Origin: a virus
DNA length: 38,521 nt
Strand: one strand, 5' to 3'
Virus record (IMG/VR): IMGVR_UViG_3300018411_000009
Location: 1-38,521 of that record
Made by a program: the position numbers and the translations under genes. The notes beneath the pieces are model-generated. The model worked only from the letters and a program-made list of their open reading frames with translations. It searched no databases and was not told where the DNA came from. Below, in pieces: positions 580 to 37,365 of this stretch. Position 1 is the first letter of the stretch; each line of letters starts with the position of its first letter.

Positions 580-1199
580 AGGCGCTCAAGTACCTTGTTG
601 ATAGCCTCTGCAATGTCAGGTGACTTCACATCAGCCTGTATCTGCAATGGCTTACCATCCTTGCCGGTTACTTCATGCTTACTTGGCGCGTTCCATCCTT
701 CCAGGTCTGCAATCTGCTTGATGGCGCTATGCGGATCATGCAATTCAAGCTTTGGCCCAAACTTGGTGGCTGTAACAGACTTGATTGCCGCTGCCGCTTC
801 AGGCGTGAGCTCATCACTGTTCTTGATTCGCCACACTGTTTGCTTTACCGGGTTGCCATCTTCATCTTCACCAACAACCTGCTCAGCAAATTCAGCAATA
901 TCTGTCATCGTGACGCGTGCTGCACGCGTGAGCCTTTCGAGCGCCTCCTGTCTTGTCATTACTGCATCACTGGCGGCCGCATTCATTAGTGACTCATAAA
1001 ACTTCTTCACCTTAGCGTCAGTTAGCATACGACTAACTATTGCATCAGCTGATTTCTCGCTCTTTGTCTTGCCACCAGCTGCGTAATACGCCTCACGCTG
1101 GCTCATCTTCCCTGTAGCCAGGTTGATAACAGTCTTACGCTGAAGCGGTGTCAGCTTACTGCCAAGCTCAAGCTGTTCTTCTGTCAGCGTTACACTCAT
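576..1199 (-). CDS. terS: Small terminase subunit
   Basis: This is the DNA-recognition subunit that selects phage DNA for packaging and hands it to TerL. The 207-residue product has the N-terminal helix-turn-helix layout of the Terminase_2 small-subunit family: a segment LTPLQRKTVINLATGK followed by an AYYAAGGK-type stretch at about residues 17-45. A helical oligomerisation region follows, and then a C-terminal part that ends in residues for TerL contact. The start has an AGGA-type Shine-Dalgarno site close upstream. The gene sits between the holin (4 bp away) and terL (4-bp overlap). In P22 the pac site lies inside this gene. Here the gene carries a pair of ACGCGT hexamers at 913-929, whose role is unknown. 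Confidence 0.88.
   Translation of the reverse strand: MSVTLTEEQLELGSKLTPLQRKTVINLATGKMSQREAYYAAGGKTKSEKSADAIVSRMLTDAKVKKFYESLMNAAASDAVMTRQEALERLTRAARVTMTDIAEFAEQVVGEDEDGNPVKQTVWRIKNSDELTPEAAAAIKSVTATKFGPKLELHDPHSAIKQIADLEGWNAPSKHEVTGKDGKPLQIQADVKSPDIAEAINKVLERL
913..929. repeat. ACGCGT pair at 11-bp spacing, inside terS
   Basis: ACGCGT occurs at 913-918 and 924-929 with GCTGC between, giving a palindrome ACGCGTG-CTG-CACGCGT. The spacing of 11 is not a multiple of three, so the two copies are read in different codon frames and cannot reflect a repeated peptide. It is one of six exact pairs of this kind in the genome. Confidence 0.8.
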
Positions 1200-1935: not shown

Positions 1936-2355
1936 TTATTGTTCCCTTGCCTTACCCTTCAGCTTTTCGTATGTGCGCAAGCCTCCCATACCAAGCATGG
2001 CGAGGATGAGCTCGAAAAGGTTATCTGTTGGGATTGTTGGCACCGTTGCTACAGCGCCAGTGGTGGATATGATGAATGTTGCTACCGGGTACCCGACAAA
2101 CTGCCAGAATACGCCTATACCGCAAGTCCATCCAATGAATGGGCGCCAGCCTGCTACAAATAAAGACTTATGCGCCGCTTCCTGCTTGTTAATGTCGGCC
2201 TGGGCCTTATTGAGCTCAACCATTGCATTAAGCTCTGCCAGTTCGCCATTCTGTTGCAACTCAATAAGCTTGAGTTTTGCTTTTTCGGCTGCTTCCTTAT
2301 CCGGTATCAGCTTATCAATGATACTTGTCACTGGACCTATCAATAAATCAAGCAT
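1936..2355 (-). CDS. Holin, GTA/3TM family
   Basis: This 139-residue protein has an N-terminal amphipathic stretch (MLDLLIGPVTSIIDKLIPD), a charged helical coil, then the motif AHKSLFVAGWRPFIGW. Hydrophobic segments follow at about residues 78-105 and 115-135. This is the layout of the GTA_holin_3TM family (PF11351), often found beside M15-type endolysins. I chose the ATG at 2355 because a GGAGG site lies 7 bases upstream; the frame is open further upstream but only as overlap with the endolysin gene. The start overlaps the endolysin stop by 8 bp, which implies coupled translation. It is probably the main lysis holin, letting the signal-less endolysin reach the periplasm. Confidence 0.82.
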   Translation of the reverse strand: MLDLLIGPVTSIIDKLIPDKEAAEKAKLKLIELQQNGELAELNAMVELNKAQADINKQEAAHKSLFVAGWRPFIGWTCGIGVFWQFVGYPVATFIISTTGAVATVPTIPTDNLFELILAMLGMGGLRTYEKLKGKAREQ

Positions 2356-2776
2356 TGATAACCTCCATGTGCGGATAGTCCCAACCATGGAAAGAGCGGC
2401 CTTTGTTTCCAAACGTGCCGCCCCATCGTAGTGAAATTGTGATCTTGCCTTGCGCTTTTAATCGCTCAGCTGTTGAAAGGATTGTTGCGGCCACCATTGC
2501 CAGGTGAACCTTATCCCAACTTGCCGAACCATTAAGGTAGGCGTAGAAGTCCAGTGCATTACCAGACTGGTGATTGCTTAGCTTGTTGTAACCATCGGCC
2601 TTGCTCTTGTTATCCAGGAATAGCGAGTGCTGTTCTTCCGCACTCCTTAAACCGCCATACTCAGGTATACCAAAGTCGATAGGTGATACAGCTAAAGCTT
2701 CGTGAAACACCAAAACAAGCTCAGGATGAACGCCGGCCATCCTGCTCTTGCTTCTTTCACTAAATTTGAACGCCAT
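2348..2776 (-). CDS. Endolysin, M15-family L-alanyl-D-glutamate peptidase type
   Basis: This is a 142-residue zinc peptidase expected to cut the peptide stems of peptidoglycan. The zinc site is clear: SNHQSGNALD gives His69 and Asp76, and WDYPHMEV gives His136, with Asp133 as the likely catalytic residue. This pattern is typical of the VanY/T5-endolysin group (Peptidase_M15_4). There is no signal peptide, so export should depend on the downstream holin. The ATG at 2776 is preferred: it follows GGGGTG and gives the usual length, whereas the longer frame needs a TTG start. The gene is the first of the lysis-terminase group and lies directly downstream of the probable promoter at 2811-2838. Confidence 0.9.
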   Translation of the reverse strand: MAFKFSERSKSRMAGVHPELVLVFHEALAVSPIDFGIPEYGGLRSAEEQHSLFLDNKSKADGYNKLSNHQSGNALDFYAYLNGSASWDKVHLAMVAATILSTAERLKAQGKITISLRWGGTFGNKGRSFHGWDYPHMEVINA

Positions 2777-2810
2777 AGAACACCCCGTTTTTATTGTCAA
2801 TACAGGGTTG

Positions 2811-2838
2811 ATTATAAACCAATGTCAATATAAGTCAG
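2811..2838 (-). promoter_or_regulatory. Probable leftward promoter for the lysis and late genes
   Basis: Read leftward, a perfect TATAAT lies at 2811-2816. A CTGACT hexamer (four of six matches to TTGACA) lies 16 bases upstream at 2833-2838. Two perfect TTGACA hexamers also lie in this gap, at 2796-2801 and 2823-2828 on the minus strand, so the exact start is uncertain. This 182-bp gap between SSB and endolysin is the longest non-coding stretch on the leftward side. It marks the step from DNA-metabolism to lysis and packaging genes, so a separate promoter is expected here. Confidence 0.5.
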
Positions 2839-2889
2839 CCTCTTTATAATCGGTTTCGCTGGCGGTCTATTTTCACAGCTAACAAGTTA

Positions 2890-2928
2890 ACGCGTGCCTC
2901 ACGCGTGAAGCACGCAACAATAACGCGA
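2890..2928. repeat. Four-unit 11-bp repeat array (ACGCGT / ACGCNN)
   Basis: Four hexamers lie exactly 11 bp apart: ACGCGT at 2890, ACGCGT at 2901, ACGCAA at 2912 and ACGCGA at 2923. The five-base spacers differ (GCCTC, GAAGC, CAATA). The array is in the non-coding gap between SSB and the endolysin, about 50-90 bp upstream of the probable lysis promoter. The 11-bp step puts each unit on the same face of the helix. It resembles an iteron or a tandem operator; the binding protein is not known. Confidence 0.8.
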
Positions 2929-2958: not shown

Positions 2959-3459
2959 TTAATCAAAAGGGATGTCATCATCAAAGTCCATTGGCGGCTC
3001 ATTGTACTGAGGCGGCGCACTATGCCTTTGGCTTGTTCCCTGTTTGGCCTGGGCATAACCTCCACTTTGCTGCCCCTGGTACTGCCCGGTATTACCGGAT
3101 TGTTGCCCTTGTGGTTTACCATCAAGCATCTGGAACTCACCACCGGGGCCAACAACAATCTCAGTGGTGTACTGATCTTGACCTTGCTGGTTCTGCCACT
3201 TGCGCGTGCGCAACTTGCCTTCAATGTAAAGCTTTGAGCCTTTGCGCGTGTACTCGCCGGCAACCTCTGCCAACTTCCCGTACAACACAACACGGTGCCA
3301 CTCGGTTTTTTCTACCGGCTGCCCTGTCTGCTTGTCTTTGTACTGCTCACTGGTGGCAATGCTTAGATTTGCCACGGCGGTACCGTTAGGCATATACCTA
3401 ACTTCCGGGTCCTGGCCTAAGTTGCCGACAATGATTACCTTGTTAATTCCGCGTGCCAT
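2959..3459 (-). CDS. ssb: Single-stranded DNA-binding protein
   Basis: This 166-residue protein coats single-stranded DNA during replication and recombination. The N-terminal OB fold (about residues 1-110) is easy to recognise: [18 protein letters not shown] at the start, then [17 protein letters not shown] and [14 protein letters not shown] glutamine/glycine/proline-rich linker follows, and then an acidic tail. The tail reads DFDDDIPFD: it matches the protein-docking tail of host SSBs but has one extra Asp after the final Phe. A GAGGTG Shine-Dalgarno precedes the ATG. It closes the left early/middle operon and works with the Rad52-like protein and exonuclease upstream. Confidence 0.95.
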
Positions 3460-5502: not shown

Positions 5503-5906
5503 AGGTCCACCCCATAAATGATTGATTCAAGCTCCTGTGACGCTTTAAGGCTTATGCCATGCTTGTCACACCATTCCGCAAGGTTATCCAGCGTTTGCAG
5601 CTGGCACTTCAAGCGGTACCCTTCAAGGCGCCATAACTCTTTGCGCGCCGATTCTTCAGCATTCTGCTTGGCTATTTTCATTCCAAGCTCTGCGTCAAAG
5701 TTTTCAGGACTGGCACACGCGCTTATCTCGGTCGCCACACTAAAGCCATTGCTCAAGAATGCCGTTGCCACTGTTGTAGTAGTGCCAGGCACCACATAAC
5801 AATGGACGTTAAGATCAGCAACCAGGCTATCAATGCGAGCCGGCGTAATTCGCGGCGCTGTCAAACCCTTGTCCTGGATCTCTTTTTCTACTGCGTTATC
5901 ATCCAC
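5499..5906 (-). CDS. Phage gp49/gp66-family protein (N4 gp49 / Sf6 gp66), GTG start
   Basis: This 135-residue protein carries the signature of the Phage_gp49_66 family. It has a basic [12 protein letters not shown] segment near the N-terminus, then [19 protein letters not shown] and a C-terminal [10 protein letters not shown], all in the family order. The function is unknown. The frame is open up to 6008, but the upstream part only mirrors csrA in another frame. The GTG at 5906 follows AGGAG by seven bases and overlaps the csrA stop by 8 bp, which makes it the natural start. It is part of the tightly packed left early operon. Confidence 0.75.
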
Positions 5907-6084
5907 GGTTTTTCTCCTGTTGGATTCTGTCGTAAATTTCCTCGCGGTGTACTTCAACCTCACGCGGGGCGTTAACTCCCAGCTTAACCTGGGAACCATT
6001 GACGCCAAGCGGGACTATCTCAATCACTTCTCGCCCGGTGTCGATGATTAATTTCTCACTAATACGGCGCGTTAGTATCAGCAT
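5899..6084 (-). CDS. csrA: CsrA, carbon storage regulator homologue
   Basis: This is a 61-residue RNA-binding post-transcriptional regulator, the same length as the Escherichia coli protein. The first strand (MLILTRR) and the final strand/helix ([17 protein letters not shown]) are nearly identical to bacterial CsrA. They keep Leu4, Arg6 and the RNA-contacting Arg in VHRE (here residue 47). The fold should therefore be intact and able to bind GGA in hairpin loops or over Shine-Dalgarno sites. A GGAAG site precedes the ATG, which lies inside the end of the exonuclease gene. The gene is well integrated in the operon, with overlaps on both sides. It may reprogramme host metabolism or time phage translation. 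Confidence 0.93.
5914..5918 (-). promoter_or_regulatory. Shine-Dalgarno site that fixes a GTG start
   Basis: AGGAG on the minus strand, seven bases before the GTG at 5906 and inside the end of csrA. The longer sequence context reads CAACAGGAGAAA, which also resembles a CsrA binding core. Confidence 0.65.
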
Positions 6085-9343: not shown

Positions 9344-9559
9344 ATGAACATTGGCCGCTCAGTAAAGGTAGCCCTGGCACAACGCGGTAAGACCGTGACC
9401 TGGCTATCTGAGCAACTTGGCATAAGCCGCACGCGCACCAGCACTATTGCGAACTCTGAACGGGTGAGCCTGGCAAACATTGAAAAGCTGGCTGCAATCT
9501 TTGAGCTCACTGCATCTGAATTTATTGCATTGGGGGAACAGGACTACAACAAGGAATAA
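9344..9559 (+). CDS. Cro-like HTH transcription regulator
   Basis: This is a 71-residue DNA-binding protein of the XRE/Cro fold. It has an N-terminal helix (SVKVALAQRGKT), the recognition unit TWLSEQLGISRTRTSTIANSE (about residues 18-39), then NIEKLAAIFELTASEFIALG. A GAGGA site lies just before the ATG. Its size and its place as the first gene of the rightward operon, beside overlapping divergent promoters, fit a Cro-type repressor that tunes early transcription. No CI-like partner gene is present, so it probably acts in lytic timing rather than a lysogeny switch. Confidence 0.78.
   Translation: MNIGRSVKVALAQRGKTVTWLSEQLGISRTRTSTIANSERVSLANIEKLAAIFELTASEFIALGEQDYNKE
9549..9555 (+). promoter_or_regulatory. 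CsrA-like motif over the Shine-Dalgarno site of the replication gene
   Basis: ACAAGGA, seven bases before the ATG at 9562. It equals the core ACARGGA known from CsrA targets and includes the Shine-Dalgarno AAGGA. If the phage or host CsrA binds it, replication protein synthesis would be repressed. Confidence 0.35.
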
Positions 9560-9561
9560 CC

Positions 9562-10455
9562 ATGGCACGCATACGAACAGTAAAGCCTGACTTATTCAGG
9601 CATGAGGACCTACACGACTTAGAACTAGAAACCGGCTTACCGGTTCGCCTGGCCTTCATCGGCTTGTTCTGTGTTTGTGATAAAGCCGGGCGCTTCCGCT
9701 GGCGCCCTAAGCAATTAAAGCTGGATATATTGCCCTATGATGATCTCGACTTTGAACGCGTAATTGACGCGTTAGCATCGCGTGACTTTCTCGTTAAGTA
9801 CGAAGTTGAAGGTGAGTTTTATGGCTGCATTCCTACTTTTACGCGCCACCAGCACATAAACAACCGGGAAAGTGAGTCAACGCTGCCTGATATGTCAGTT
9901 GGTACCCTCACCAATGAGGGAGCCAAGCCTGAAAGCCCCGCAATTACTGAGCCTGAGCAAATAAGTAACACTGAACTTGTCACGCGTGAACCACGCGTAG
10001 AGCACAGCACAGAAGGGGAAAAGGAAAGGGAAAAGGAAAGGGAAGGGGAAAGGAATAATATGTCGCGCCAAACACGCGACCAGGTGAAAGAAGTTTTCGA
10101 CCACTGGATCACAACCATGGGAAAAACCTCACAAGCCAAACTTACCGACAAGCGCAAGAAGTGCATTGAGGCAAGGCTGAAGGAAGGTTACACGGTTGAC
10201 CAGATCAAGCAGGCAATCGAAGGTTGTGCAAAGTCACCTCACCACATGGGGCAAAATGACTCAGGCACTGTTTACGATGATCTGACTTTGATTTGCCGGT
10301 CTGGTGACAAGGTTGAGCAATTCGCCAACAACGTAGCCAAGTTCCAACCAACCTACCTGAACGGGCCAGGCACAGAAACCCTTGAGCAATTTGAAAGCCG
10401 CGTAAGAAACCAGGCCGATAGAGCCAGCGCGATGATTGACGACTTACCAGACTAA
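9562..10455 (+). CDS. O-like replication initiation protein
   Basis: This 297-residue protein begins MARIRTVKPDLFRHEDL and continues with a winged-helix-type N-terminal domain (about 1-110), including RLAFIGLFCVCDKAGRFRW, typical of phage replisome organisers. A middle, highly charged linker (EGEKEREKEREGERN) is encoded by a polypurine tract. The C-terminal domain (about 165-270) has EVFDHWITTMGK, a KRKKCIEARLKEGY helix and SGTVYDDLTLICRSGDKVEQF, the conserved C-terminal module of phage replication proteins. It should bind the origin and recruit the host helicase. As in lambda O, the origin may lie within this gene. Confidence 0.82.
   Translation: MARIRTVKPDLFRHEDLHDLELETGLPVRLAFIGLFCVCDKAGRFRWRPKQLKLDILPYDDLDFERVIDALASRDFLVKYEVEGEFYGCIPTFTRHQHINNRESESTLPDMSVGTLTNEGAKPESPAITEPEQISNTELVTREPRVEHSTEGEKEREKEREGERNNMSRQTRDQVKEVFDHWITTMGKTSQAKLTDKRKKCIEARLKEGYTVDQIKQAIEGCAKSPHHMGQNDSGTVYDDLTLICRSGDKVEQFANNVAKFQPTYLNGPGTETLEQFESRVRNQADRASAMIDDLPD
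9756..9783. repeat. ACGCGT three-unit array at 11-bp step, inside the replication gene
   Basis: ACGCGT at 9756-9761 and 9767-9772, then TCGCGT at 9778-9783, each exactly 11 bp after the last. A weaker TCTCGT falls on the same register at 9789. Confidence 0.75.
9982..10079. other. Candidate replication origin inside the replication gene
   Basis: The region holds an ACGCGT pair (9982, 9993; 11-bp step), then a 45-base pure purine run (10011-10055) with a 12-bp tandem repeat GGGAAAAGGAAA. A short AT-rich patch (AATAATAT) follows, and then a second, degenerate pair TCGCGC/ACGCGA (10063, 10074; again 11-bp step). Iterons beside a strand-asymmetric, easily opened tract inside an O-like gene recall the lambda origin. 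No experimental or database support is available. Confidence 0.45.
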
Positions 10456-12634: not shown

Positions 12635-12952
12635 ATGAAAATCGAATCCAAGAAACTACGTGATAGCGCCAGGGATGAGGAATGCACGCTGCAAATTGTC
12701 GGCGTGTGCAACTTCAACTGGCAAACTACAATCCTTGCTCATTTGCCTGACGAATCAAACGGCATGAGCACCAAGTCAGACGATATTAGCGCGTGCTATG
12801 CGTGCCACGCTTGCCATGATGCGATAGACAGGCGAAACAATGACGCGTCAATGACAGGTGAAGAACGCGAGTGGTACATGCGCCGGGCAATGGTTCGCAC
12901 ATGGCGCCGGCTAATTGAGAAAGGGATAGTTACCATTAAAGGAATGAAATAA
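12635..12952 (+). CDS. YbcO-like (DUF1364) nuclease
   Basis: This 105-residue protein begins MKIESKKLRDSARDEECTLQI and carries Cys17, Cys25, His36 and then CYACHACHDAIDRR (Cys54, Cys57, Cys60, His61). It is the metal-binding pattern of the DUF1364/YbcO family, whose Escherichia coli member is a DNA nuclease of the lambdoid nin region. It probably processes branched recombination intermediates. The ATG at 12635 is preferred, but a GTG at 12629 (overlapping the previous stop) is also possible. It is the last gene of the rightward operon and is followed at once by a terminator. Confidence 0.82.
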   Translation: MKIESKKLRDSARDEECTLQIVGVCNFNWQTTILAHLPDESNGMSTKSDDISACYACHACHDAIDRRNNDASMTGEEREWYMRRAMVRTWRRLIEKGIVTIKGMK

Positions 12953-16373: not shown

Positions 16374-16399
16374 CGCTCTCGCCCTATTGGGAAAGAGCG
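16374..16399. other. Hairpin over the stop codon of the giant gene
   Basis: CGCTCT-CG-CCC-TATT-GGG-AA-AGAGCG: an outer six-pair stem and an inner three-pair stem. It includes the stop codon of the giant gene (16384-16386). Read leftward, TTATAATG follows directly. It may be a terminator joined to a promoter. Confidence 0.55.
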
Positions 16400-19300
16400 C
16401 TTTCAACTTGTTCCAGGGCCTTGTTGGCCTGTTCATAGAACTGCGCAAGAGCATTGTTCTTCTGCTGGTACCAGTTTTCTATTCTCCTTTCCTTCTCATC
16501 CCTGGTTAGGTCCGGGTTGTACTTGATTGCTGCAAGAACCGTTTCCTGGTCCTTGAATGCGCTATCAATCTGTCTAAAGGCGTTATCCATGCTGATAAGC
16601 AACTGGTTAACTTTGTCTGCTGAAAAGTCTTTCATTGGCTGCTGATCGCGTATTGCTTGTGCGGTCAGTAGGTCAAATGCAGACTTAGCGCCGGCTGCCT
16701 TTTTCTTGAGCTCAAAATAACCTTCAGTCCATTTAGTTCGATAAGGAACGCGCTGCCCCTGGAATTGATAGGTCAAGTAATCAATCGGCTCTTTAACGAA
16801 TGGACGCGCCCCCCACTCTTTTTCATTCCACAGCAAGGCTTCACTGCCATCTGAGATATACGCCTCAACATAACGCAAGTAGCCTTTCATGTAATGCTCA
16901 GCCACCAATGGCGACACACCAAGCGCCTCACCAAGATTGCGGTACAGCTGCGGCGTGCGATCAGTGAATTGATACTCATTAGGAACGTGCATCAACCTTT
17001 CAGGGACGATAGGCGAGCCGGTAAACTTCTTATTCCTTGCCACCTCAATCATTGGCTGGAATATGCCAGGGTAATCGCCAACGCCAAGCGTATTAGCAAA
17101 GGTCCACGCCAGCGTCTGCGCTGCCTCTTTACCATCACGCTCCTTGATATAGTCAAGGCTAACTTCTGGTATGGTTGCGAACAAATGCCCTATATCGTAT
17201 GGACGCGGAATTTTAAGAGGCTTCTCTGCACCAGGAAGGAAGATCCACCAGAAGCGCGCCTTTTGGTCTGGCGTCAATGCCTGGTACCGGTCATCATCCT
17301 CATTCAGCAACCATAAGATCACTGTCATAAGTGTAAGCACGCCACCAGCCGCCAGGAATCGCACCTTCGCATCATCAAGTTTTGCCAGGTTGCTACCCTT
17401 CATTTCACCGCGCAACTCAAATATCTCTCGCGCCGTTTTATCCAGGCCCTGGATACCGGCATTCATAAACGGAACTGTCCGAAGGAACTTGGCCCACAAC
17501 TCATTGCGCCCCATCTTGCTAAAGTCTGTTGCAACTTCCCTGGCCTCCCATGCAGCCTCAAGTGCATTCTTTCCAGCTTGGCGGCCACGGCGATAATCAC
17601 CAAGGCGGCTACCATACTCAAATGCACTAGCAAAGCGGTCATAGCCAGCCAGAAACTTGGCTGCGGTATCCCACATATTGCGGCTTGGCAGATCAAGCTG
17701 CCGGCGCTTTCTGGTTTCCTCTGTTCTTGCCTCGATACGGGTACCATAGCCGCCACCATGCAAACGAAACTCACGGTAAAGCTTGGTGTGGAATATGGCG
17801 TGCCCCATACCAATCAAGGTGTCCCATACCGGAATGAACTTGTTTTTGCTGATCACAAAGGCGCTAAGCGTATCGCGCACAGCGTTTGGACCAAGGAACT
17901 GAAGCATTGACGTTACAGTGCGAGTTTGCAGGTTCTTCACGCGGAACATGGCATTAAGCAACGCGCCAGACTTGAACCCTCTCATACCGGTTAGCATGTC
18001 CACCAGCAATGGGTTGCGAACCTCAAACCAGGTGCGCTTACCATCAATGATGGCGCTATCAACGTATGTTTCTGCTGTCGTTGGCTTGTGCCCAAAGGTC
18101 CAGAAGTTAAGCAGATCAGGGTTAGACTCAAGAGCCTGGGCAATATCATCAACATCAGTGATCTGCGCATCAGGATCGCCGGCCATAATCATTCCATCTT
18201 TACTTACTGTTAGGCCAACATCAGCCATGGCTTCAGCAATTTTTGCTGCCATCTGAGTTTGCTCGACCTTAACCAGCTTGCTATCTGGCGACAACTTAAC
18301 AGCAAACAGTGATCCATCCTGGCTAGTCATAATATCCCGGTATAGCGTCTGCTTGGCCCTGGCAATCAATGCTGCCCGGATATTTGAGTAAAGGCCCTCA
18401 ACAATGTTTTCAGCAATGTCGCGCACGTTCTGAGTACCGCCACTTAGGCGCTTGCCGATTGACGTTGTTCCAGCCTGATCACCATCTTCAAGGCGTTCTA
18501 TTACCCGGTGGAATGGAACATAGTTTTTGTTGGCATCAGCAAAGGCTTGCTTCTGCTTCCCATCAATCAGACCCATCTGCTCGTAGAAGTCCAGCATTCG
18601 CTTGTTGAACTCCTGATATTCCTTAAACACATCACGGAACTCAGGGTATGTAACACCAAGCTTTAAACCGGCCTCAATCTCTTGCTTTGTGAACAGCCTT
18701 TCACGGCCCTGCTTCATAAGCTCATTGGCCCGGCGAGCCTTGAAGTAATCCATAAGCAAGTCAAAACGCTTCCAGCCATGTTTTGATACCGGCCAAAACA
18801 CCTGGTTAAGCCCCTTTCCGTTAAACTCAAAGGTTCCATCTTCAGCAAGTGAAGGTGTGCCATCTTTCAGGATCGCTTCATGTAACGACTCCGCACCATT
18901 GATAAGCTGGAACTGCTTAAATGGGCTTAACGCTGCATCACGAACCTCACCATGAAGCGTGCGCTCAACCACCTTTGCAGCATGGATCTTATCAATCACT
19001 TCCTGGCGATAGCGCTCAAGTGGGTATGACTGCATGTACTGAATGATCTGCTGAGACTGACTCAACTCCTTACCAGACTTAGCGCGCAACTGAGCGCGAG
19101 CGCCTTGCAGGTACCACCGGTGCATTTCATCCTGCAGCTTAACCATTTTCTTGTTGAGTGTTGAATCCTCAGCAAGCACTTGCTCAAAGCGCTGAGTAAA
19201 CAATGGCGCCGCCGCTTTTACCTCTGCATAGTTGGTAAGCCATAGGCGCACAAATTCAGCAAAGCCTTCCTTAAACTTCAGGTTTTTCTGGCTTGTGTAG

Positions 19301-22300
19301 CTCAGGCTGGCAACCTCATCACGATACTTGGTGTCCTTGTATGCCCTAGTAAAGCGCTTGTTGTAGCGGTAGTGCATATCAAGGTAGTGAGCCATTTCAT
19401 GGGCCATCACCTCAACATCATCATAATTGGCAACACGAACCTCACTGTTGTTCTTACGGTAGAAGCCAAGCTTTGACTTGCCTTTCACTTTGCCCTGATA
19501 AAGCCTTGGGCCTATAACATCCTCAACCATGACGCGCACACCCTCACGGCGAGTTGGCTGATCCTCTGGCTTTAACTTCACAGTCCGATCGCCAATAGCA
19601 AACTCATCACCTTCAGGGCGCTTAGGTACACCAGCCTGGCGATATGTTGGACGCCAGTTAGGCATTGGAACATCGGCACCGGCGTTATACATCATGGCGC
19701 TTGTACCGTCCTGTTCAATTTCCTCCTGGTCCTTGTTCTTTGGCTTTAGCTCAGCAATAACCAAGGCATGACGCGCCTTAACCTTTGCAAGCTCATCAGC
19801 CTGTGACCAATCAGCGATTTGCCCTTCAAGGTCTGGTATATCTCGCTCAGCTTGCTTGATAAGCTCTGCTTCATTCTTGGCATCTGCACTAATGCGCTTC
19901 ACTGTGTTGGTGATTCGCATAGCCAAGCCAGTAGGATCAGCTTCAGCAATATCTGGAATGTCTACCTGATATTCCTGCTCACCCTCTATGGTGATCACGA
20001 ACTCAGCACCACTGATATTATCCAGGCGCAATTTAAAGCCTGCATACTCACCAATAGCCTTTGTTTCCTGGCCTGCATCAGCCATCTTGTTTGCTGCCGC
20101 CAGCAATGCCTGGCCAGCCTCCTTGTGCTTGTCGTACTTTCCGCTGTTGATCGTGATCGCAAAGTCCTTTGGCGCCTTCTCGGCCTGTTTTGCGTCACGC
20201 GTGAACTTCAGCATTCTATCCTTGCCGGTTTCAATGCGTAGCTTCAGGCGGCGCACCTGGTCACGAATACGGAACTGCTCGCGGTCATGCTCATCTTCAA
20301 GCTGTTCAAGCTTTCTGATTTTCTGGCGCAAGTCCATTTCTTCCAGGATAAGAGGATTACCACTTGAAGCCGCTTTCATTTCAGCTGCGTTACTTGCTTC
20401 ACCGCCAACGTCCTCAATTTCTCGCGTCTTTGTATTGCCTTTACGGACCTGCTCAATGAATCGCGCCTTGGTTTCAATGGTCTGCCACATACGGCTATCA
20501 AGCGTTTGCTTGGTTGCATAGCGGTTAATCTCCACCTCAAACCCATCAGGATCGCGCTCATACAGCTTGTTGCCCTGGCGAATAATACGGCCTTCACGCT
20601 GCTCAAGGTCTGAAGGCCGCCATGGTGCATCCATGTGGTGTAGAGCAACTAGGCGCTCTTGGACGTTCATGCCTGCGCCCATCTTTGCGGTAGAGCCAAA
20701 CAGCACACGAATGCGGCCACTACGCACCTTGCCAAACAATTCTTCTTTCTGAAGCTCGGTATTGGCATCGTGAATAAATGCTATTTCCTGCTCAGGAATA
20801 CCCTTATTGATCAGCTTTTGGCGCAAGTCATCGTAAACACTGAAATCACCGTCAAGCGCTGACAATTCATCAGGGCTCATCTTGTCGAGCTCATCCTGGG
20901 CACGCTCATCACCGTTATCTGCTTTTTCAATCAGATCGCGGATTCTGGCCGCCTCTTTTGCCTTAGCTCCTTTCGGTGTGCTCAGATCAATGAATACCAG
21001 CTGCGCGCCTTTGTCTGTACTCCACTGGTCGTAAATGCGCTTAATGTTGTCTGCCGCCTGATTTACCTTGCTGCCTTCGTAGTCACCGTACATGGCCGGG
21101 TCTATCATGCGCATATCAAGCGCCGCCTTCCTGGCGTCACTCATAATCTTCAGCATGTTATCCGCGCCCTTTTCAGGCTTCTTAGGCAAGTGCTCAGCAC
21201 GCCAAACAAGACTTCCTTCAGGGTATGACTCGCGGCCATTCTCATCAGTGACAGGTTCACCGATATAAGCGGCCTGATCATCACTGCGAGTAACCACAAC
21301 ATTCTGAGGCTTGCCGCCTTTAACCTTTGGCACTGGTAGGCGCTTGCCCTGGGCTGCCAACTGGCGGTTAATGTCATCACGGTTGATAACATCACCAAAC
21401 GATAGGTAGCGCTGCATAAGCTCAGGGATATTCACGAACTTACTGAAGCGGCTGTTTAGCTTATAGGTGCCTGAAGGTGACAACTCCCAATCAGTAACAA
21501 CCTCGCCATACATGCGCGCCCATGCGTCAAAGTGTGCAATGCCCTGGTCCTGTAGCGTCTGGTAATCAAGATAACGCTGCATGGTGTACATTTCAGCCAT
21601 GGTATTGCTGATCGGCGTACCGGTAGCAAATACCACGTTATTGCCGCCAGTCTTTTCCAGGACAAACTGAGTTTTCATAAACAGGTCTGCCGCCTTCTGG
21701 CTGCCTTGCGGATTACCAAGGCCGGCAACGCGGGTCATGCTGGTGGCAAAGCCAAGGTTCTTAAACTCATGCGCTTCATCCAGGAATAGAGCGTCAACAC
21801 CAAGCTCACCAAAGGTTAGGTTGTCATCCTTGTTTTCTGCATCAAACAGCTTCTTCAGCTTTTCCTGAAGGCGCTCTTTCTGCTTCTCAATCTGCTTAAT
21901 GCTTCGTGACTTCTGCCCATCCTGGGCCCGGATATTCTGGATAGCCTCATCAATGTCACGGATCTGCTGATTGATAAATCGCTCCTGGAACTCCTTATCC
22001 ATTTCCACTTTACCGAACGATGAGTGAGCGACAATAACAGCATCCCAATCACCGGTGGCAATGCGCGCAAATAGGCGCTTGCGGTTTCCTTTCTCAAAGT
22101 CCTTCTTGGTGGCTGCCAGCACATTAGCGCCAGGGTAAAGCTTGGTAAAGTCCTCTGCCCACTGGCCAACAAGGTGATTAGGAACAACAAACATAGGCTT
22201 TTTAGCTCGGCCCATGCGGCGCATTTCCATAGCGCCAGCAATCATAGTGAACGTCTTGCCGGCACCAACAACGTGATCCAGTAAGGTAGTTCCAGACTGC

Positions 22301-25300
22301 ACGATACGCCAAACTGCATTAGCCTGGTGTGGGCGCAACTTGATAATGTCATCACTTACTTTGCCAGGGAATGTAAGATGGCCACCGTCAAACTCTCGCA
22401 AGCGATCAGTATTAAAGGTGTCGTTATAAATCCTGGTCAACCGACTACGGCGCGCATCGTCCTGCCATACCCAACGGCGAAACTCAGCCTTTAAGCGCTC
22501 AACCTTTTCATTGGCCGCATTGGTAGCTGCCTCATTCACTCTTGTTGTGTTTTCGTCAATGCGATCACGCACAACAATCTGCTTCTGGTTTGCAGCTGCT
22601 GCCACAATATCAGTCACCTGCACGCGGTCAGTACCCCAACGCGAGCGCGCTGCTTCTGTAGGCACACCATCAATAGACCACTTAGCATTGGTCGGAATAT
22701 ACACGGCCTTACCGCTTTCATTGCCAAGCACATGATCCACAAAAGACTTCATATCTTCACGCGGCAACCAGTGAGCGCCAGGCTTAACATCAATGTCAAC
22801 GGCCTCAATATCTTCAGGCTGGACCGCCTCAAGCGCTTGCACGTTGCGCTTGTACTTACTGTCTACCTTGGCAAGCTGCCTTGCCTGGGCAAGCTTCTGC
22901 TTAACATTGCCGCTAAGGTATTGGTCACGCGTTTCAAATCGGCCAGGCTCAACCTCATACACAAGATCACCAAGCTCATTGGCAATGTATCCTGGCGTCT
23001 TGTTGTAAAGCTTCGCCATGTAATCCATATCAATGGCGCCATACTCTGAAAGACTTGCCGCCATTGCATCCTTGGCGGTTGCCGCTTTGGTAGGCGCTTT
23101 ATATGGTGACTGAGTACGCTTGAAGAAAATTGCAGCCTTGCTTGCGCTTGGCTTGCGCGATTGCTCGCCGGTTTTCTTTGCCATTGCAGGCGTAATGCCT
23201 TTATCGAATGATTCTTCCAATGCTGCAATCTGCGGCCAGGTGGGATCATCACGGAATAAGCGCTTGTTGGCATCTGAGTTTATTGGACCATGCGCCTTAA
23301 CAAACGCGTCATACTCACGATTAAGACGCGTGCGCAACGCGTCAAGCGCAGCATCTTTCACGCCTTCAGTAAGCTGGGCCTTCCTCAAGTCCGTGAACAC
23401 ATCACGAACCTTGATCATGCCCTCAACGCGCTGGCGCGCTTTGTCGCTGGCAAACTCAACCGGCTCAGCCTGAATACTACCAAGCTCATTATCCTGGCGA
23501 ACCATCACCTTGCCGCCATCAATGAACATGCTACCAACTTTGACGTTATCAACGCTGGTGGATAGCTTCACTTCTTCTTTTGCCGGCGCCGCTTTTGACT
23601 CTGCCATAATCCCTTTTGGTAACTTAGCCAATGCCTCACGCAACAATGCGCCAGTGTCCTGACCTTCACGCGCAACAAGCGCCGGGTCATTAGGTCCATA
23701 CATTGAGCCGTATGCACCCCATTCACCAAGCATCATGTCGGGATTCTTTACAAAATATTCATTCAGTGGTGTTTCAATGCCGTTGGCGTCTTTCACTGAT
23801 TCAGTACGCTTCCATGAAGTACCTTTACGCGGCGTGCCTTCCTCTCGCTTCTGAAGGAAAACAATGTCAGTGGTAACTTCTGTGCCGGCATTCTTTAGGA
23901 ATGCGTTATTAGGCAACCTGACCGCACCAAGGAAGTCTGCGCGATTAGCCATGTACTCACGCGCTGCCTGATTGCTTTGACCATCCATAAGGCGGTTAGA
24001 GACAACCATTGCAAGTACGCCGCCAGGCTTCAGGCCATCCAGGCTTTTTGCAAAGAAGTAGTTGTGAATGCTGAACTTAGATAAGTCTTTGCGCTTACCG
24101 TCATATAGCTTCTGGCTCCCAAATGGCGGGTTCCCTATTGCCAGATCAAAGTAACCATCAGGCATAGTGAAGTCTTGAAAGCCCATTGGCGTTTTAATGT
24201 TTGCGCCTGGGTAAAGGTGTGAAGCAATCCCGCCTGTAATATGATCAAGCTCTACGCCGGTGATCTGGCTTTTTCCTCGAACACCTGCCGGCATCATCCC
24301 TAAAAAGTTACCAGTACCAACTGAAGGCTCAAGCACTCGGCCACCAGTAAAACCCATATCCTTAACAGCCTTCCAGATTGAAGTAACAATCTCCTGGCTT
24401 GTGTAGTGGGCATCCTGCGTGCTTCGGCGCGCTGCATCATACTCAGCATCTGTAAGCAACTCTTTAAGCTGTGCCGCCTCTTTCTCCCACCCCTTTGATA
24501 CTTTACCTGCATCACCATAGAACGCTTGAGGAATACCGCCCCAACCAACATAACGCGCAAGCGCTTGCTGTTCTTCTGGCGTTGCCTGGCGTCCTTCAGC
24601 CTCAAGAGACTTCAGGATCTTGATTGCTTCAAGGTTGTTCTTGAATTTAGTTTTCTGGCCACCTTCACCAATTCCCATATCTGGCGTAATGGTAAACATC
24701 TTGGCCGGGCGATTATCTGCACTAACTGCCTGCTGAGTTGTTTCACCAACTGGCGCCGGCGCTTCTTCTGCCGCCTTTTCCTCAGCCTGGATTAATTCTG
24801 CATCCCCTCTTGATACTGGTCGGCCTGCATCACTCGGCTTTTCATCTGCAACGCTTCCTGGTACATCGGTGCCGCGTTGCTCGCCTCGTCCGGTTCGCTC
24901 TGCTCCGCTGGTGGAAACAGGTGATTCTCCCTGACCATCTGAAACGCCTCGTCCGGTTGATACCCCTGGCTCTCCAATTCGCTCACCTCGGCCAGCGTCT
25001 GCTCTGCCGCTTGCTTCAGGGCTAAGTCCAGCGCCCCCTGTTTCTTCAGCGCCTGGTACTTGCTCGGCTGGAACTCCTGCCAGTGCTTCTTGGCTTGGCT
25101 GATCCAATTCTGTAGGTTCATTGGTTTGCTCCTGTGCTTGCTCTGGTTGCCAGGCTGCTTGTAAATCGGTAAGTAGCTTTTGCTTTTGCGACTCTGGTAA
25201 ATCAGATCGCTCAATGACTCGCTGAGCGGCCATACCCTTTGACTGTCGGTTTTCCGCACCTGGTTCACTGGCAACATTGTTAATACGCCCTTCAATATCT

Positions 25301-27348: not shown

Positions 27349-27355
27349 CCCCGCC

Positions 27356-28243
27356 TCACTGTGAATACATTTCAAGTAATTTGTTGCGGTCTATATTACC
27401 ACTTTGCCCCAAATCTTGAACCTGAATACCAAGCTTTCTCGCTGCTTGTGTTACAGCTTGCGAGCGAGTAACGCCACCTTGGCTATAAATTTTAGCCGCT
27501 TCAGTTGCGATAGACTGGACCTTGCCGCGTGTGGCCGGGTCAAGGTTTTGAAGGTTGCCTTGCTGATCAAACAAACCACCAAGCAACTCACCAGCCTGAC
27601 GATACATCAATGACTCATCAGCTGACTTTAGACCGCCATCGCCACTGGCACGCGTTAACGCGTTTTGCCGACTTGTCTGGCGGTCAAGCTCTTGACTGCT
27701 TGTTGTACGTTCGATAACGCGGCCATCCTTATACAGTCGGTCCTCTGTGCCAAACGTCATGCGCTCAGGGTTCTGTAGCAACTCATCAACCTGGCGAGCT
27801 CTGGCAAGCTGCATTTGAAGGAAGTTAGGGTCGTATTGCTCAGGCATCTTTGCTGCGAGCTCTGGTGATACGCTTTGCCTGGCAAGCTCGTATGCCTGCT
27901 CAGGGTTTTCAGACTGAAGAACATAGGCTGACATTTTTCCGATCGCATCAATGTTCTCTTGTGTCTGCTGGCGCTGGCGATCATCCATCTTACTTAGTGA
28001 CTCAAGCATCTTCTTAGCTTCTTCAGGGTCAAAAGCGTTTAGCTCCTGCATAGCCTGAGGATCACCAGCTGACGCCTTTGAGCGCAAATCAGCAAGAGCG
28101 TTACCTCGCTGGCGCGCTGCCTCGCGGTCCTCTTTCTTCCAGTCCATCATTAACGCGTTCTGCTCGCGAGACTGACGCGCACCCTTAACTGCCTCTGCGG
28201 TCCGGTAAACCTGGCCCAAGTCAATTCCAAAAGCATTAGCCAT
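27356..28243 (-). CDS. Probable ejection (internal virion) protein, gp20-like position
   Basis: This is a 295-residue, strongly helical protein rich in Gln, Ala and Arg. It has an N-terminal GIDLGQVYRTAEAVKGARQS, a charged middle (KKEDREAARQRGNALADLRSK) and a C-terminal GVTRSQAVTQAARKLGIQVQDLG. No enzyme motif was recognised. By position between a gp7-like protein and the giant protein, it matches P22 gp20, one of the internal proteins ejected before the DNA to build a channel across the cell envelope. The Shine-Dalgarno GGGAGG lies over the stop of the upstream gene, and the next gene starts seven bases after its stop. Confidence 0.65.
   Translation of the reverse strand: MANAFGIDLGQVYRTAEAVKGARQSREQNALMMDWKKEDREAARQRGNALADLRSKASAGDPQAMQELNAFDPEEAKKMLESLSKMDDRQRQQTQENIDAIGKMSAYVLQSENPEQAYELARQSVSPELAAKMPEQYDPNFLQMQLARARQVDELLQNPERMTFGTEDRLYKDGRVIERTTSSQELDRQTSRQNALTRASGDGGLKSADESLMYRQAGELLGGLFDQQGNLQNLDPATRGKVQSIATEAAKIYSQGGVTRSQAVTQAARKLGIQVQDLGQSGNIDRNKLLEMYSQ
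28153..28180. repeat. Degenerate three-unit array at 11-bp step
   Basis: ACGCGT (28153), TCGCGA (28164), ACGCGC (28175): CGCG cores exactly 11 bp apart inside the ejection-protein gene. It is weaker than the other arrays, as only one unit is exact. Confidence 0.45.
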
Positions 28244-28245
28244 GA

Positions 28246-28932
28246 TTAACCTCCCATCATGCTGTAAAGAAGATAGTTCTGCATACCCTGGTTTGCTGCC
28301 TGGGCATACCCCTGATAAGCCTGCGACTGTGCGTTACCCTGGTTAATGGCGTTTTGAGCAAGCGCATTGCCAGTTGCAATCGTACTCTGAGTGACATTGT
28401 TAGCCATGTTAGTTCGCGCATTGGCGTCTGCCTGGTTTGCTACCTGTCCAACATTTGACAATGATGCAAGCTGGTTGAAGTTCATGGCCTTAGATCCTGC
28501 ATTGCGAGCATAGGCATTTGCATACTCATTGCTGGCAAAATCTTGCCCAAATCTGGTAAGCGCCTTTTGCTGAGCTCCTGACTGAAGCTTTCCTCGCGCA
28601 GAAGCACTAGCGTCAAGCGCATTAACACCTTCTTGCAGCCTGAATTGATAACCGGGATCCGCTTCAAACTTAAAATTGCTTGGGTCAAACTCTCCTGAAG
28701 CAATACCTGCCTGAAGCTGACCAAGGGCCTGCGTACCAATCTCACGCCATGGGGCGTTATCTTCACGCTGCTGATCAAAAACCTCTCGCTGAAACTCAAT
28801 GGTTTCGCGGTTAGCTTGCACTTGAGCATCACTTGCTTGTTGTGACGCCTTTGACGCCGCCTTGCTAGACTTGTTTGCTGAATACGCGCCAACAACGGCG
28901 CTACCAACTACTGCTGCTGCAACAACTGACAT
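28246..28932 (-). CDS. DNA ejection protein, P22 gp7-like
   Basis: This 228-residue protein has a hydrophobic, small-residue N-terminus (SVVAAAVVGSAVVGAYSANKS), a helical coil (VQANRETIEFQREVFDQQRED), then WREIGTQALGQLQ and the conserved DPGYQFRLQEGVNALDASAS (about 90-110). The C-terminal third is an Ala/Asn/Gln-rich helix. This pattern is shared by gp7-type DNA transfer proteins of P22-like and other short-tailed phages. It is packed in the head and ejected with the genome. The start overlaps the upstream cupin-like gene by 25 bp and follows an AGGAG site. Confidence 0.78.
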   Translation of the reverse strand: MSVVAAAVVGSAVVGAYSANKSSKAASKASQQASDAQVQANRETIEFQREVFDQQREDNAPWREIGTQALGQLQAGIASGEFDPSNFKFEADPGYQFRLQEGVNALDASASARGKLQSGAQQKALTRFGQDFASNEYANAYARNAGSKAMNFNQLASLSNVGQVANQADANARTNMANNVTQSTIATGNALAQNAINQGNAQSQAYQGYAQAANQGMQNYLLYSMMGG

Positions 28933-29402
28933 GGCTCATTCTCCTGTTCGTTTGGTAGCGCTGCACGCTCGCCAGGCGGTAACTCCCGGAATTGAGCCAT
29001 GCTGAATACCGTTAAAATATCTTCAATGCCTTCAGGGCTTGTGGCATCCGTTTTATGTACAGTGATCCAGTGCGTATCTTCGTGAGCATATCCAGCACGC
29101 TTGCGACCTGGTACGCCTTCCATGATATTCACACCTGTTAAACGCTTTACACCATCAGGCGTTGCAACTGTAATATCACCACTAAGCATAATATCCACAT
29201 AACCAAACTTGTGAACGCGCCCTGTAAGTAGCGTGCCTTTTGGAATAGTTATCTCACGTGCATACATGCCATTTACAAAGCGGTGCTCTACTGGCATTTC
29301 AACCTGCTCATGATCGAGCATGACTTCTTCCATGGCCTCTATTTTTTCGTTTACCTGCTCTGCCAATAGCTGGTGGACCTGCGCCGGCGTTAACTCATCC
29401 AT
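28908..29402 (-). CDS. Cupin-like structural or accessory protein
   Basis: This is a 164-residue protein with a helical N-terminus (about 1-35) and then a run of short beta strands: VEHRFVNGMYAREITIPKGTLLTGRVHKF, DIMLSGDITVATPDGV, and ITVHKTDATSPEGIEDILTVF. This is the layout of a cupin/RmlC-type jelly roll, of the kind found in small phage virion-associated proteins. It lies at the position of P22 gene 14, whose product helps head assembly, but sequence similarity to gp14 is not evident. The start shares one base with the preceding stop (TAATG). Confidence 0.55.
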   Translation of the reverse strand: MDELTPAQVHQLLAEQVNEKIEAMEEVMLDHEQVEMPVEHRFVNGMYAREITIPKGTLLTGRVHKFGYVDIMLSGDITVATPDGVKRLTGVNIMEGVPGRKRAGYAHEDTHWITVHKTDATSPEGIEDILTVFSMAQFRELPPGERAALPNEQENEPCQLLQQQ

Positions 29403-29746
29403 TAAAAGACCTCCACGCCAGAAGCTGCCACTGCAACCTTGTTTTCCCCATTGGCATCAGTATTCATATAGAGCATATCGCCTGATCGCATGGTAATGCC
29501 TTCAAGGCTGTATGCACTCCATGACTCATTAATATCAAGAAGCTTTGCCGGTAACACTTTGTTTGTGTCATCAGGTGCGCCACCAGCTGGAACAATATGA
29601 GCCGTTACAGTTACCGCTTGTGCCGCTGTATTACCAAAAGTAACCTTGCTGATAATTGTTTTCTTGTTTGCCGGGCTCTGGTAAAGCATTTGAGCCGTTT
29701 GCGTTAGCGCTTGGGGCGCAATCATTTGAATCGGTACTGCCTGCAT
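29402..29746 (-). CDS. Small beta-rich virion protein
   Basis: This is a 114-residue protein with a pattern of beta strands: KKTIISKVTFGNTAAQAVTV, TAHIVPAG, SAYSLEGITMRSGDMLYM and NKVAVAASGVEVF. It resembles small immunoglobulin-like or head-tail accessory proteins found between tail genes in many phages. No enzyme motif is seen. It probably decorates the capsid or the tail hub. An AAGGAGA site precedes the ATG. It lies between the collar-domain protein and the cupin-like protein, with a gap of 10 bp upstream. Confidence 0.5.
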   Translation of the reverse strand: MQAVPIQMIAPQALTQTAQMLYQSPANKKTIISKVTFGNTAAQAVTVTAHIVPAGGAPDDTNKVLPAKLLDINESWSAYSLEGITMRSGDMLYMNTDANGENKVAVAASGVEVF

Positions 29747-29756
29747 GGCGTTCTCC

Positions 29757-32535: not shown

Positions 32536-32863
32536 TCAGCTTCTCCTGGATCTTGGCAATCAAGGTTTCTTCCTTCCAGGCTTTCATTAACTTCAGGCCA
32601 AGACCTTTACCAAGTTCAACGTGTTCGTCTTTGGTAAGGCTCTCAGGATTTTCCTGGAATGCACTTAACAGGCCCTGCTGTTCAGCTGTGAGCTCTGCAC
32701 CACCTTCATCACTTGATTCTTCAGCCTGCTTGAACTCTGCCGGCGAGTCGCGCCAACCTTGTTGTTCAAGATCGTCAATGTCGGCTTCATCTTCAAAGGT
32801 GAACAGTTTTGCACCCTTCTCAGGATGATAAAGCCACATACGCTTTGGTTTGTTCTCTGGCAT
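32510..32863 (-). CDS. Small acidic protein after the coat gene
   Basis: This 117-residue protein begins MPENKPKRMWLYHPEKGAKL and then FEDEADIDDLEQQGWRDSPAE. A long acidic linker follows, and then a C-terminal helical part with LGKGLGLKLMKAWKEETLIAKIQEKL. The C-terminus is reminiscent of HeH/LEM-type helix-extended-helix modules found in small phage head genes, but this is uncertain. Such proteins often lie between coat and adaptor genes. Function unknown. Confidence 0.6.
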   Translation of the reverse strand: MPENKPKRMWLYHPEKGAKLFTFEDEADIDDLEQQGWRDSPAEFKQAEESSDEGGAELTAEQQGLLSAFQENPESLTKDEHVELGKGLGLKLMKAWKEETLIAKIQEKLNGNDQATD

Positions 32864-32882
32864 TGTGTTTCTCCGTCAATGG

Positions 32883-32906: not shown

Positions 32907-32917
32907 GGTGAACTATC

Positions 32918-34177: not shown

Positions 34178-34200
34178 GGCTTAATACTCCAAAGTTTCTG

Positions 34201-35288: not shown

Positions 35289-37353
35289 AAGCATTCCCTT
35301 GGCTCTGAGCCATTAACTCGGCCATAGCCTCAGCAACCAGGTTACGCACTGTATCTTCCAATGTTCCAGGACCTGCCATCATGGCCGCCTGCTCTATTTC
35401 TGCCAACTTCGCTTGTGCTTCAGCTGTCTTAGCTTGTGCCATTGCCATATCGGCCTGGGCTTTCGCTGTGTCTGCCTTGGCTTTCTCCATATCGGCTTGA
35501 GCCTGTGCCATATTGGCTTGCTGCTCTGGTGACGGTTGAGGCGGTTCAATACCTGCTTCCTCCATTTCATCCTGATCAAGAATGCCAGGCGGCAATGTTT
35601 TCTGTAGTCGGCGTGCAATATCCTGCGCGCCAGGCCAATCCATATTCTTGGCGATAAGATCAAGGACCACGCCACCAGCTGCCGGCACAGCCTGAACAAA
35701 CTGCATTAAACTGTCTGCTGCTTCCATGCGCTGTGTTTGATAGCTTGGGCCAGCCTTCACAGTCACATCAAACTTACCTGCTGCAATATCGTTAACCAGG
35801 ACCGGCTTCTGTGTTTCCTCATCCATGACCATCTGATTTATCTGAACCCAATCACCTTCACCATCCTGGAAGCGCAAGCGCAACACTCGTTCGCTGTCAT
35901 ACACTCGCGGGATAAGCTCAATCAGGATCTGCCCAACACGGCGAATAGCCCGGCTCAGGTTGTCGATATAGGCAAAGGTACCGCGATCACCCTGGCGCTG
36001 GCGCGCAAGAATAGCCTTGCCGCTTTGCTCATTCCCTTGTGCGCCAACGCTGGCATCATACAAGCCAATAGTTGCTTTCATTTCATCGGTAGCGCTCAAT
36101 GCAAGCTGAAGCTCTGCCGCTGGCATACTGGCCGGCATATCACGCTGAGGACGGTCAACACCTGGTAAAGCGTTATAGCGTAGAACGCTCATGTTCTTGC
36201 GGTTTGCCTGGTTCCATTCTTCCTCATAGCCTTCAATGGATTCTGCTGGCGCTACCCATGGGGCCTTTGGTGCCAATGCAACACGCTCTGTTGCTGCTGT
36301 CATCCAGTAGTTGTGCATACGCTGGGCATCCTTACCAAAGCGAATCAGACCACGGTAATAGGTCTTGTCACCGATAACCATTTCCTTACCAAGCACAGGT
36401 GCCACAGGAATGGTTGAGCCAGGCCAATCAACCGGGCCTTCTAGCACATCGTATGCAGTAACCTTCATCCATTTAACTTTGTAGGTTTTGACGCGTCTTT
36501 CACGCGTGACTGTCGTGCCAAGCTCGCGCAACTCGTCAAGCACATCCTTTACTTCATCTTCCCACACGGTACGGCCATCACTGAGCAATAACAGCTTGCG
36601 AGTTACCGGTTCACGGTAGAAGTATTCAGATACACGCACACCTTCTTCATTGGTCCACCAGCTGTACTCACCACGCTCAGCATCACTCAGATCACCAACG
36701 GCTTTTCCTGGGTACCGCTTTTTAAACTCTGCCTTGCTCATGCGCTCGCTGATAAAACACCAGTTTGCATCACTGTAGTCTGGCTCTGTTGCGTCCGGGT
36801 CCATCAACACAGCAAAGCGGTTGTGAATACTCTTGATGCACAGGTCAAGGTCAAAGGCATCATCAGCGCTGTACTTGGTGAGAACGCGCAACCAACCAAA
36901 GCCACCTTCAACGGCGTGCTGGAATGCGTTGTCATAGTGCGCTTCTGCGTTGCTGGTGTACTCGATGTTGCGGATCAGGCTCTCATACACTTCTGCCAGG
37001 CTGTAATCAGAAGTGCCGGCCACGTTTGGCACCTTGCTGGTATCCTTGGTGGCATTGGCTTCGACTGGATGCACCTGGATTGCAGGGCGATTCTGGCGCT
37101 GATCACCCAATACCTGGTCAACGTATTGAGGCAACTTGTTCAGCGTCAAGCATGGGCGGCCCTCGTCCTCACGTTCCTTGCGCACAGACTCAGGCCATTG
37201 TTGACCGGCCAGGAATGAAATATCTTCCTGGGCTGCATCAAAGTTATGCTTCCAACAAGTAACAGCGTGCGCTGCTCGCTCTCGTATTTCCTGAAGTATT
37301 GCCTCTTGGCTGTCATCATCCCTGGTCTTAATTGGTTCATTACCTGGTAGCAT
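35287..37353 (-). CDS. Portal protein, P22 gp1-like
   Basis: This is a 688-residue ring protein at the DNA entry vertex. The N-terminal region (about 15-90) has HNFDAAQEDISFLAGQQWPE and PCLTLNKLPQYVDQVLGDQRQN, characteristic of the P22 portal family. A middle crown/wing part has GEYSWWTNEEGVRVSEYFYRE, and then GLIRFGKDAQRMHNYW at about 345. The C-terminus (about 590-660) is a long Ala/Gln/Lys coiled coil with repeated MAQAQADMEKAKAD-like units, matching the helical barrel of P22 gp1. The gene carries an ACGCGT pair at 36491-36507. Confidence 0.9.
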   Translation of the reverse strand: MLPGNEPIKTRDDDSQEAILQEIRERAAHAVTCWKHNFDAAQEDISFLAGQQWPESVRKEREDEGRPCLTLNKLPQYVDQVLGDQRQNRPAIQVHPVEANATKDTSKVPNVAGTSDYSLAEVYESLIRNIEYTSNAEAHYDNAFQHAVEGGFGWLRVLTKYSADDAFDLDLCIKSIHNRFAVLMDPDATEPDYSDANWCFISERMSKAEFKKRYPGKAVGDLSDAERGEYSWWTNEEGVRVSEYFYREPVTRKLLLLSDGRTVWEDEVKDVLDELRELGTTVTRERRVKTYKVKWMKVTAYDVLEGPVDWPGSTIPVAPVLGKEMVIGDKTYYRGLIRFGKDAQRMHNYWMTAATERVALAPKAPWVAPAESIEGYEEEWNQANRKNMSVLRYNALPGVDRPQRDMPASMPAAELQLALSATDEMKATIGLYDASVGAQGNEQSGKAILARQRQGDRGTFAYIDNLSRAIRRVGQILIELIPRVYDSERVLRLRFQDGEGDWVQINQMVMDEETQKPVLVNDIAAGKFDVTVKAGPSYQTQRMEAADSLMQFVQAVPAAGGVVLDLIAKNMDWPGAQDIARRLQKTLPPGILDQDEMEEAGIEPPQPSPEQQANMAQAQADMEKAKADTAKAQADMAMAQAKTAEAQAKLAEIEQAAMMAGPGTLEDTVRNLVAEAMAELMAQSQGNA
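36491..36507. repeat. ACGCGT pair at 11-bp spacing, inside the portal gene
   Basis: ACGCGT at 36491-36496 and 36502-36507 with CTTTC between. A weak third unit TCGTGC falls on the same register at 36513. Confidence 0.75.
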
Positions 37354-37365
37354 GGTTATCTCCTG

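Follow-up and report, generated by a model that had tools for sequence, protein, structure and literature searches.

A phased ACGCGT array between the ssb and endolysin genes of a VvAW1-like phage, a probable initiator-type iteron array outside the putative origin

The origin of phage lambda lies within the gene of its own initiator: the O iterons are found inside gene O, in the DNA coding for the linker between the DNA-binding and the loader-contact parts of the protein, and they are followed by a strand-biased tract. Sites for an initiator can also be placed outside the origin, and incA of P1 is an example known from iteron plasmids. In Bacillus phage SPP1, G38P binds both oriL (located in the initiator gene) and oriR, and at oriR it has been proposed to block the fork, from which recombination-dependent synthesis of concatemers would start (PMC6316719, PMC3485210). 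RctB, the initiator of V. cholerae chromosome 2, has six sites within 74 kb of DNA located 40 kb away from ori2, and its sites outside ori2 lower initiation via titration and handcuffing (PMC6090056). In the case of the RepA_N initiator of PLE, the N-terminal domain and the iterons are swapped together, with the C-terminal part remaining stable (PMC8263062).

The window (the whole stretch of 38,521 nucleotides analysed here) is closely related to Vibrio phage VvAW1; in its first 13 kb, 86% of the sequence matches that phage at 92%. The VvAW1 type is a P22-like podovirus encoding a giant protein of the DarB kind; in the window this DarB-like antirestriction ORF (16384-27375) has 3663 aa and takes up more than a quarter of the record. 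The window also encodes an RNA-binding regulator of the CsrA type, at 5899-6084 (Pfam E 3e-19). The VvAW1 genome is linear, circularly permuted, and terminally redundant; the phage gives turbid plaques, has no recognised integrase, and its authors suggest a possible plasmid-like lysogeny (PMC3558961). A close plasmid form of the phage was looked for and rejected, with no plasmid match to 28000-38521 and no close match in genome contigs.

The array and its surroundings

The array lies between the ssb and endolysin genes and consists of four units (Table 1). Both the units and their exact 11-bp steps, described in an earlier note made from the letters of this DNA, were borne out on reading the sequence. 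The pair ACGCGT-N5-ACGCGT has six exact occurrences in the window (913, 2890, 9756, 9982, 23326, and 36491), while ~0.016 exact 11-bp pairs are expected from 25 scattered ACGCGT hexamers at any one spacing, and the Poisson probability of at least four such pairs is ~3e-9. The shuffled sequences contained no exact pair, and each of the other ACGCGT spacings up to 200 bp is represented in the window by one pair at most. Two Janthinobacterium genomes (6.4-6.5 Mb) provide a natural yardstick: three exact pairs are found in each at the prophage initiator gene, and only two in total outside the prophage initiator genes. On these figures the pattern does not arise by chance. The array is real and phased, and of a protein-binding type. 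In respect to regularity, the array had been described as the most regular of its family, but the four-unit scores of the arrays at 9756 and 23304 are equally high.

Two other origins of the pattern were considered and rejected. A restriction-site or base-composition effect does not apply, as ACGCGT is not over-represented in the window (25 observed vs 21.7 expected from the Markov model). A terminator or RNA hairpin was dismissed as well; units 1 and 2 are able to pair as a 7-bp stem, but a T-run is absent, the scan made no terminator call, and the spacers differ between the copies.

Table 1. Coordinates of the array, its neighbours, the initiator gene with its putative origin, and the off-origin copies in the window
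Feature	Position	Strand	Remarks
Four-unit array	2890..2928	.	ACGCGT 2890, ACGCGT 2901, ACGCAA 2912, ACGCGA 2923; 11-bp steps
Array core ACGCGT-N5-ACGCGT	2890..2906	.	Sole part surviving in all 7 aligned records
Endolysin gene, M15 peptidase type	2348..2800	-	First minus-strand gene past the gap
ssb	2959..3459	-	Minus-strand gene immediately preceding the array
AT-rich conserved low-stability block	2775..2855	.	Hexamers resembling promoters on either strand; may be a late promoter or an unwinding region
TATAAT (-10-like)	2811..2816	-	CTGACT 16 bp upstream
Replication initiation protein (phrog_16167)	9562..10455	+	Profile match; structure prediction
Putative origin iteron cluster 1	9756..9783	+	ACGCGT-ACGCGT-TCGCGT, 11-bp steps, inside the initiator gene
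Putative origin iteron cluster 2	9982..9998	+	Inside the initiator gene, linker-coding DNA
All-purine tract, 45 bp	10011..10055	+	Immediately follows cluster 2; presumed side of strand opening at the origin
Off-origin pair in terS (576-1199, minus)	913..929	.	Exact
Degenerate off-origin pair, HNH-type gene	12843..12859	.	2 mismatches here; 1 in VvAW1, G003, G008
Off-origin array, DarB-like gene	23304..23342	.	ACGCGT, gap, ACGCGT, ACGCGT; core pair 23326-23342
Degenerate off-origin pair	28153..28169	.	2 mismatches here; 1 in G001, G003, G008
Off-origin pair in the portal gene	36491..36507	.	Identical in all VvAW1-clade relatives checked

The position of the array is kept in VvAW1 and in two further relatives (G001 and L178), and a 2-unit remnant is present in two others (G003 and G008), where TCGCGT-N5-ACGCGT is retained amid otherwise diverged DNA. 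Conservation does not extend to units 3 and 4, which are both altered in VvAW1 and absent from G003 and G008. The array borders a variable spot within the VvAW1 clade, at which gp20 is either present or absent. In VvAW1, G001, and L178 the whole of this small gene separates the array from the AT-rich block and its TATAAT; in the window it is deleted beside the array (2817-2889), and its last codons are left as a remnant.

A promoter-like neighbourhood had been claimed for the array, and the conserved AT-rich block beside it was confirmed by alignment, stability, and hexamers. For stability, the block is in the bottom 0.1-0.2% of all windows in the record. The perfect TATAAT was found at the place given in the earlier note and reads on the minus strand (2816-2811), but the array starts 73-74 bp and ends 112 bp away from it, not at the 50-90 bp given there. 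Within the block, at 2804-2830, TGTCAATA occurs twice ~19 bp apart, and TATAAT-like hexamers are present on both strands; this may be a site for a regulator.

The array had been read as a control site for the late switch, either for an activator or for a repressor or loop. In its fullest form, this reading has an activator, the initiator or some other protein, occupying 2890 and acting on the adjacent promoter, so that lysis and packaging are turned on and late transcription is perhaps coupled to replication. The conserved block does hold a late-strand TATAAT with CTGACT 16 bp upstream, but the promoter scan is weak (2 promoter-like sites vs 0.4 in shuffles), and the distance between the array and the TATAAT is 73, 222, 264, 264, 56, and 83 bp across six records. 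This range of 56-264 bp arises because gp20 can intervene, as it does in three of them, and the fixed spacing required of a late-promoter activator array is therefore not found; in addition, units 3 and 4 are gone in G003 and G008. The array is the sole exact pair outside genes, in which sense the claim that it is the only non-coding copy stands, but the five remaining exact copies (in terS, the DarB-like gene, the portal gene, and two in the initiator gene) lie deep inside genes, and promoter control makes little sense for them. Initiators can act on promoters, as in the autorepression by RctB (PMC6090056), and the earlier note recognised no Q-like gene. With most copies intragenic and the distance to the promoter variable, it is possible but less likely that the array controls late transcription directly, and the motif matches the iterons of the initiator (see below). 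The late-switch function in its fullest form is considered improbable, with a secondary effect of the array on late transcription being possible.

The initiator gene and its iterons

The predicted structure of the initiator comprises a winged-helix N-domain (aa 1-110), a disordered linker (~aa 124-164), and a helical C-terminal part. The winged-helix prediction has pLDDT values mostly >90. A fold search with the N-domain returned mostly winged-helix DNA-binding proteins, all of the matches being weak and none significant, and no sequence relatives of this domain were found among solved structures. The initiator gene contains direct repeats, clusters 1 and 2, in the layout of lambda O and SPP1 oriL. 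Because the 11-bp steps shift the reading frame and cluster 2 encodes the disordered linker, the repeats represent a structure at the DNA level and do not result from protein conservation. We infer that 9756-10055 is a putative replication origin similar in kind to lambda O or SPP1 oriL, and that the initiator would bind its ACGCGT iterons.

An unrestricted scan of IMG/VR with ACGCGT-N5-ACGCGT-N5-ACGC gave at least 120 loci. Among the 120 listed, the array is inside a homologous initiator gene in at least 95, as identified by a profile search with the N-terminal part of the window initiator. In those 95 listed loci, 294 of the 297 exact pairs fall within the initiator gene, and the pairs form two clusters, 150-250 and 300-450 nt from the gene start, in the same layout as clusters 1 and 2 of the window. 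The arrays are followed in many listed loci by a purine tract of the GGGAAGGGAAAGG type, with similar tracts seen in relatives. For the remaining 25 listed loci, six ORFs over the array were tested, and all of them match other replication-initiation or primosomal families. A related initiator is also encoded by a circular 54-kb plasmid of Endozoicomonas that carries genes for phage structural proteins, and the arrays on this plasmid are found at the initiator gene only.

Arrays of ACGCGT with 11-bp steps were also observed in distant initiator families (phrog_9474, 2447, and 9327 types; loci L057, L060, L083, L088, L101, and L160), several of them preceding short tandem repeats. Phages may share this hexamer very widely as an origin iteron, and ACGCGT every 11 bp would offer a simple way to locate phage origins in raw sequence. 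Since the motif at 2890 matches the in-gene origin arrays of many phages, the array is interpreted as a set of off-origin initiator iterons, and on this comparison its assignment to the initiator type is very probable.

The association of the array with the N-domain was examined in an initiator-based sample of relatives, chosen independently of array presence. The array is present in all 10 relatives in which aa 1-110 of the initiator are at least 70% identical, and in none of the 22 that share only the C-terminal part. It is likewise absent, in a separate sample, from the sister phages 1.211, X14, D478, and 1.183. The co-occurrence is partly built in, as cluster 1 lies within the DNA coding for the N-domain. 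Five diverged N-domains (L189 and L192-L195) are accompanied instead by the palindrome TCGCGA at 10-bp steps, also in two clusters and in comparable places, which suggests that the iteron and its spacing changed together with the DNA-binding domain. An exception is ct7QV12, which has an N-domain 52% identical and is without ACGCGT arrays. GAAGCAAC-like repeats are seen before a purine tract in this phage (L231, MW202713.1, 1201-2100). Several named phages with N-domains 31-42% identical have no ACGCGT pairs, and Vibrio phage 1.176 (43%) has three units adjoining a purine tract.

Dispersed operator-like sites are known from other phages, namely the stoperators of L5-type phages and the ParB sites of N15, and the sites in the window could be bound in a similar manner by a different protein, e.g. 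a Cro-like HTH regulator, as stoperator-like or partition sites. A Cro/C1-type HTH gene is indeed located next to the initiator gene (9344-9559), but relatives of it occur in few array-bearing loci, compared with the initiator N-domain in at least 95 among the 120 listed, and no ACGCGT pair is found beside the HTH gene, where its promoter and the divergent early promoter region lie. Binding by such a protein is highly improbable.

Off-origin copies and their proposed role

Extra sites of the initiator type, as known from titration and handcuffing systems, are found outside the putative origin at four places as exact pairs (913, 2890, 23326, and 36491) and at two as degenerate ones. The places are the same in VvAW1, G001, G003, and G008, either exact or with 1-2 mismatches, and the motif is absent from the homologous genes of relatives with other initiators. 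None of the off-origin copies has a purine tract beside it. Extra copies as a general feature of the initiator were rejected: in 27 of 28 larger records of other array-bearing phages, every pair is located at the initiator gene or adjacent to it, and the lone exception (G026) has one further array, in a coiled-coil-like gene. From this comparison, the spread of iterons outside the origin appears peculiar to the VvAW1 clade.

The off-origin copies could also be regarded as neutral leftovers, or as codon-level coincidences of TRxxRV codons. The terS and portal copies do read TRxxRV, as does cluster 2 in the initiator gene (TREPRV), but the homologous codons in relatives, even where the residues are similar, differ and lack the motif. 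Compared within the close clade, the coding copies show no higher conservation than the genes around them, and the test accordingly does not support purifying selection on each coding copy. One of the copies is, on the other hand, intergenic, and four exact off-origin pairs are found vs ~0.016 expected, so a neutral origin is quite unlikely.

The position of the array, with 2890 being ~6.9 kb from 9756, places repeats of the origin type far from the putative origin as in SPP1 oriR, and the array might be considered a second origin fully of this kind, at which the initiator would melt 2775-2855 and load the helicase. SPP1 has oriL in the initiator gene and an intergenic oriR in the late region (PMC6316719). 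In the window the repeats adjoin a stretch that is among the least stable in the record, but ordinary intergenic regions account for the other very unstable windows, and the AT-rich neighbour is located behind gp20 in VvAW1, G001, and L178. Moreover, the purine tract is absent at the 2890 array. A second origin is thus unlikely.

Taken together, the best explanation overall is that the array is an off-origin initiator site with a role in replication control, a reading that is likely on balance given the sequence comparisons; for a replication-control function of the 2890 array as such, the chances are about even. In the proposed mechanism, the winged-helix N-domain of the initiator would bind ACGCGT half-sites spaced by a helical turn of 11 bp. 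Theta replication would start at the iterons in the initiator's own gene (9756-9998), beside the all-purine tract, and the same initiator would also occupy the arrays at 2890, 913, 23326, and 36491, as well as weaker places. As the copy number rises, the outlying sites could soak up or pair the initiator (titration and handcuffing), and/or they could form a fork barrier, with the blocked forks leading to recombination-dependent concatemer synthesis as proposed for SPP1 oriR. A concatemer mode would be a requirement of the circularly permuted, terminally redundant genome. The sequence gives no choice between titration or handcuffing and a fork barrier, as the non-polar palindromic half-sites and their wide scatter suit both. 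More tentatively, the VvAW1-type phages might use a scattered network of sites, in packaging, capsid, injection, and intergenic DNA, which senses copy number or stalls forks and so times the theta-to-concatemer transition and the late functions. It speaks against replication control that most phages with such an initiator do without off-origin copies; with arrays only at the initiator gene in 27 of the 28, such phages do not generally need the extra sites.

Both iterons inside initiator genes and off-origin sites for initiators are already known, and four or more exact off-origin copies, mostly intragenic and limited to one clade, are new according to the open literature searched. The search of the open literature (subscription papers being outside its scope) for ACGCGT direct repeats in connection with a bacteriophage replication origin found none. 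The analysis offers the phage initiator as a concrete candidate partner for an otherwise unexplained repeat, and one small clade with iterons outside the origin would be a tractable case for the timing of the concatemer switch in phages.

Comparison with known systems

As in lambda, the iterons are located in the linker-coding DNA of the initiator gene and are followed by a strand-biased tract. The repeat of the window differs from that of lambda in being a 6-bp palindrome every 11 bp, in its arrangement in two clusters, and in the presence of off-origin copies. The likeness to SPP1 consists of direct repeats in the initiator gene together with a distant intergenic set near the late genes, which in the window, though not in the relatives with gp20, is directly beside an AT-rich stretch, and of a genome packaged from concatemers. 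SPP1 has, however, one extra site, whereas at least four exact ones are found here, mostly intragenic, and the two are likened by layout.

Putative initiator sites outside the origin are shared with RctB and P1 incA, although these belong to chromosomal or plasmid replicons, and plasmid replication of VvAW1 is only suspected. In respect to PLE, the same joint swap of N-domain and iterons separates VvAW1 from its sister phages, with the difference that the iterons of PLE are semi-palindromes of ~30 bp and are located in a non-coding origin.
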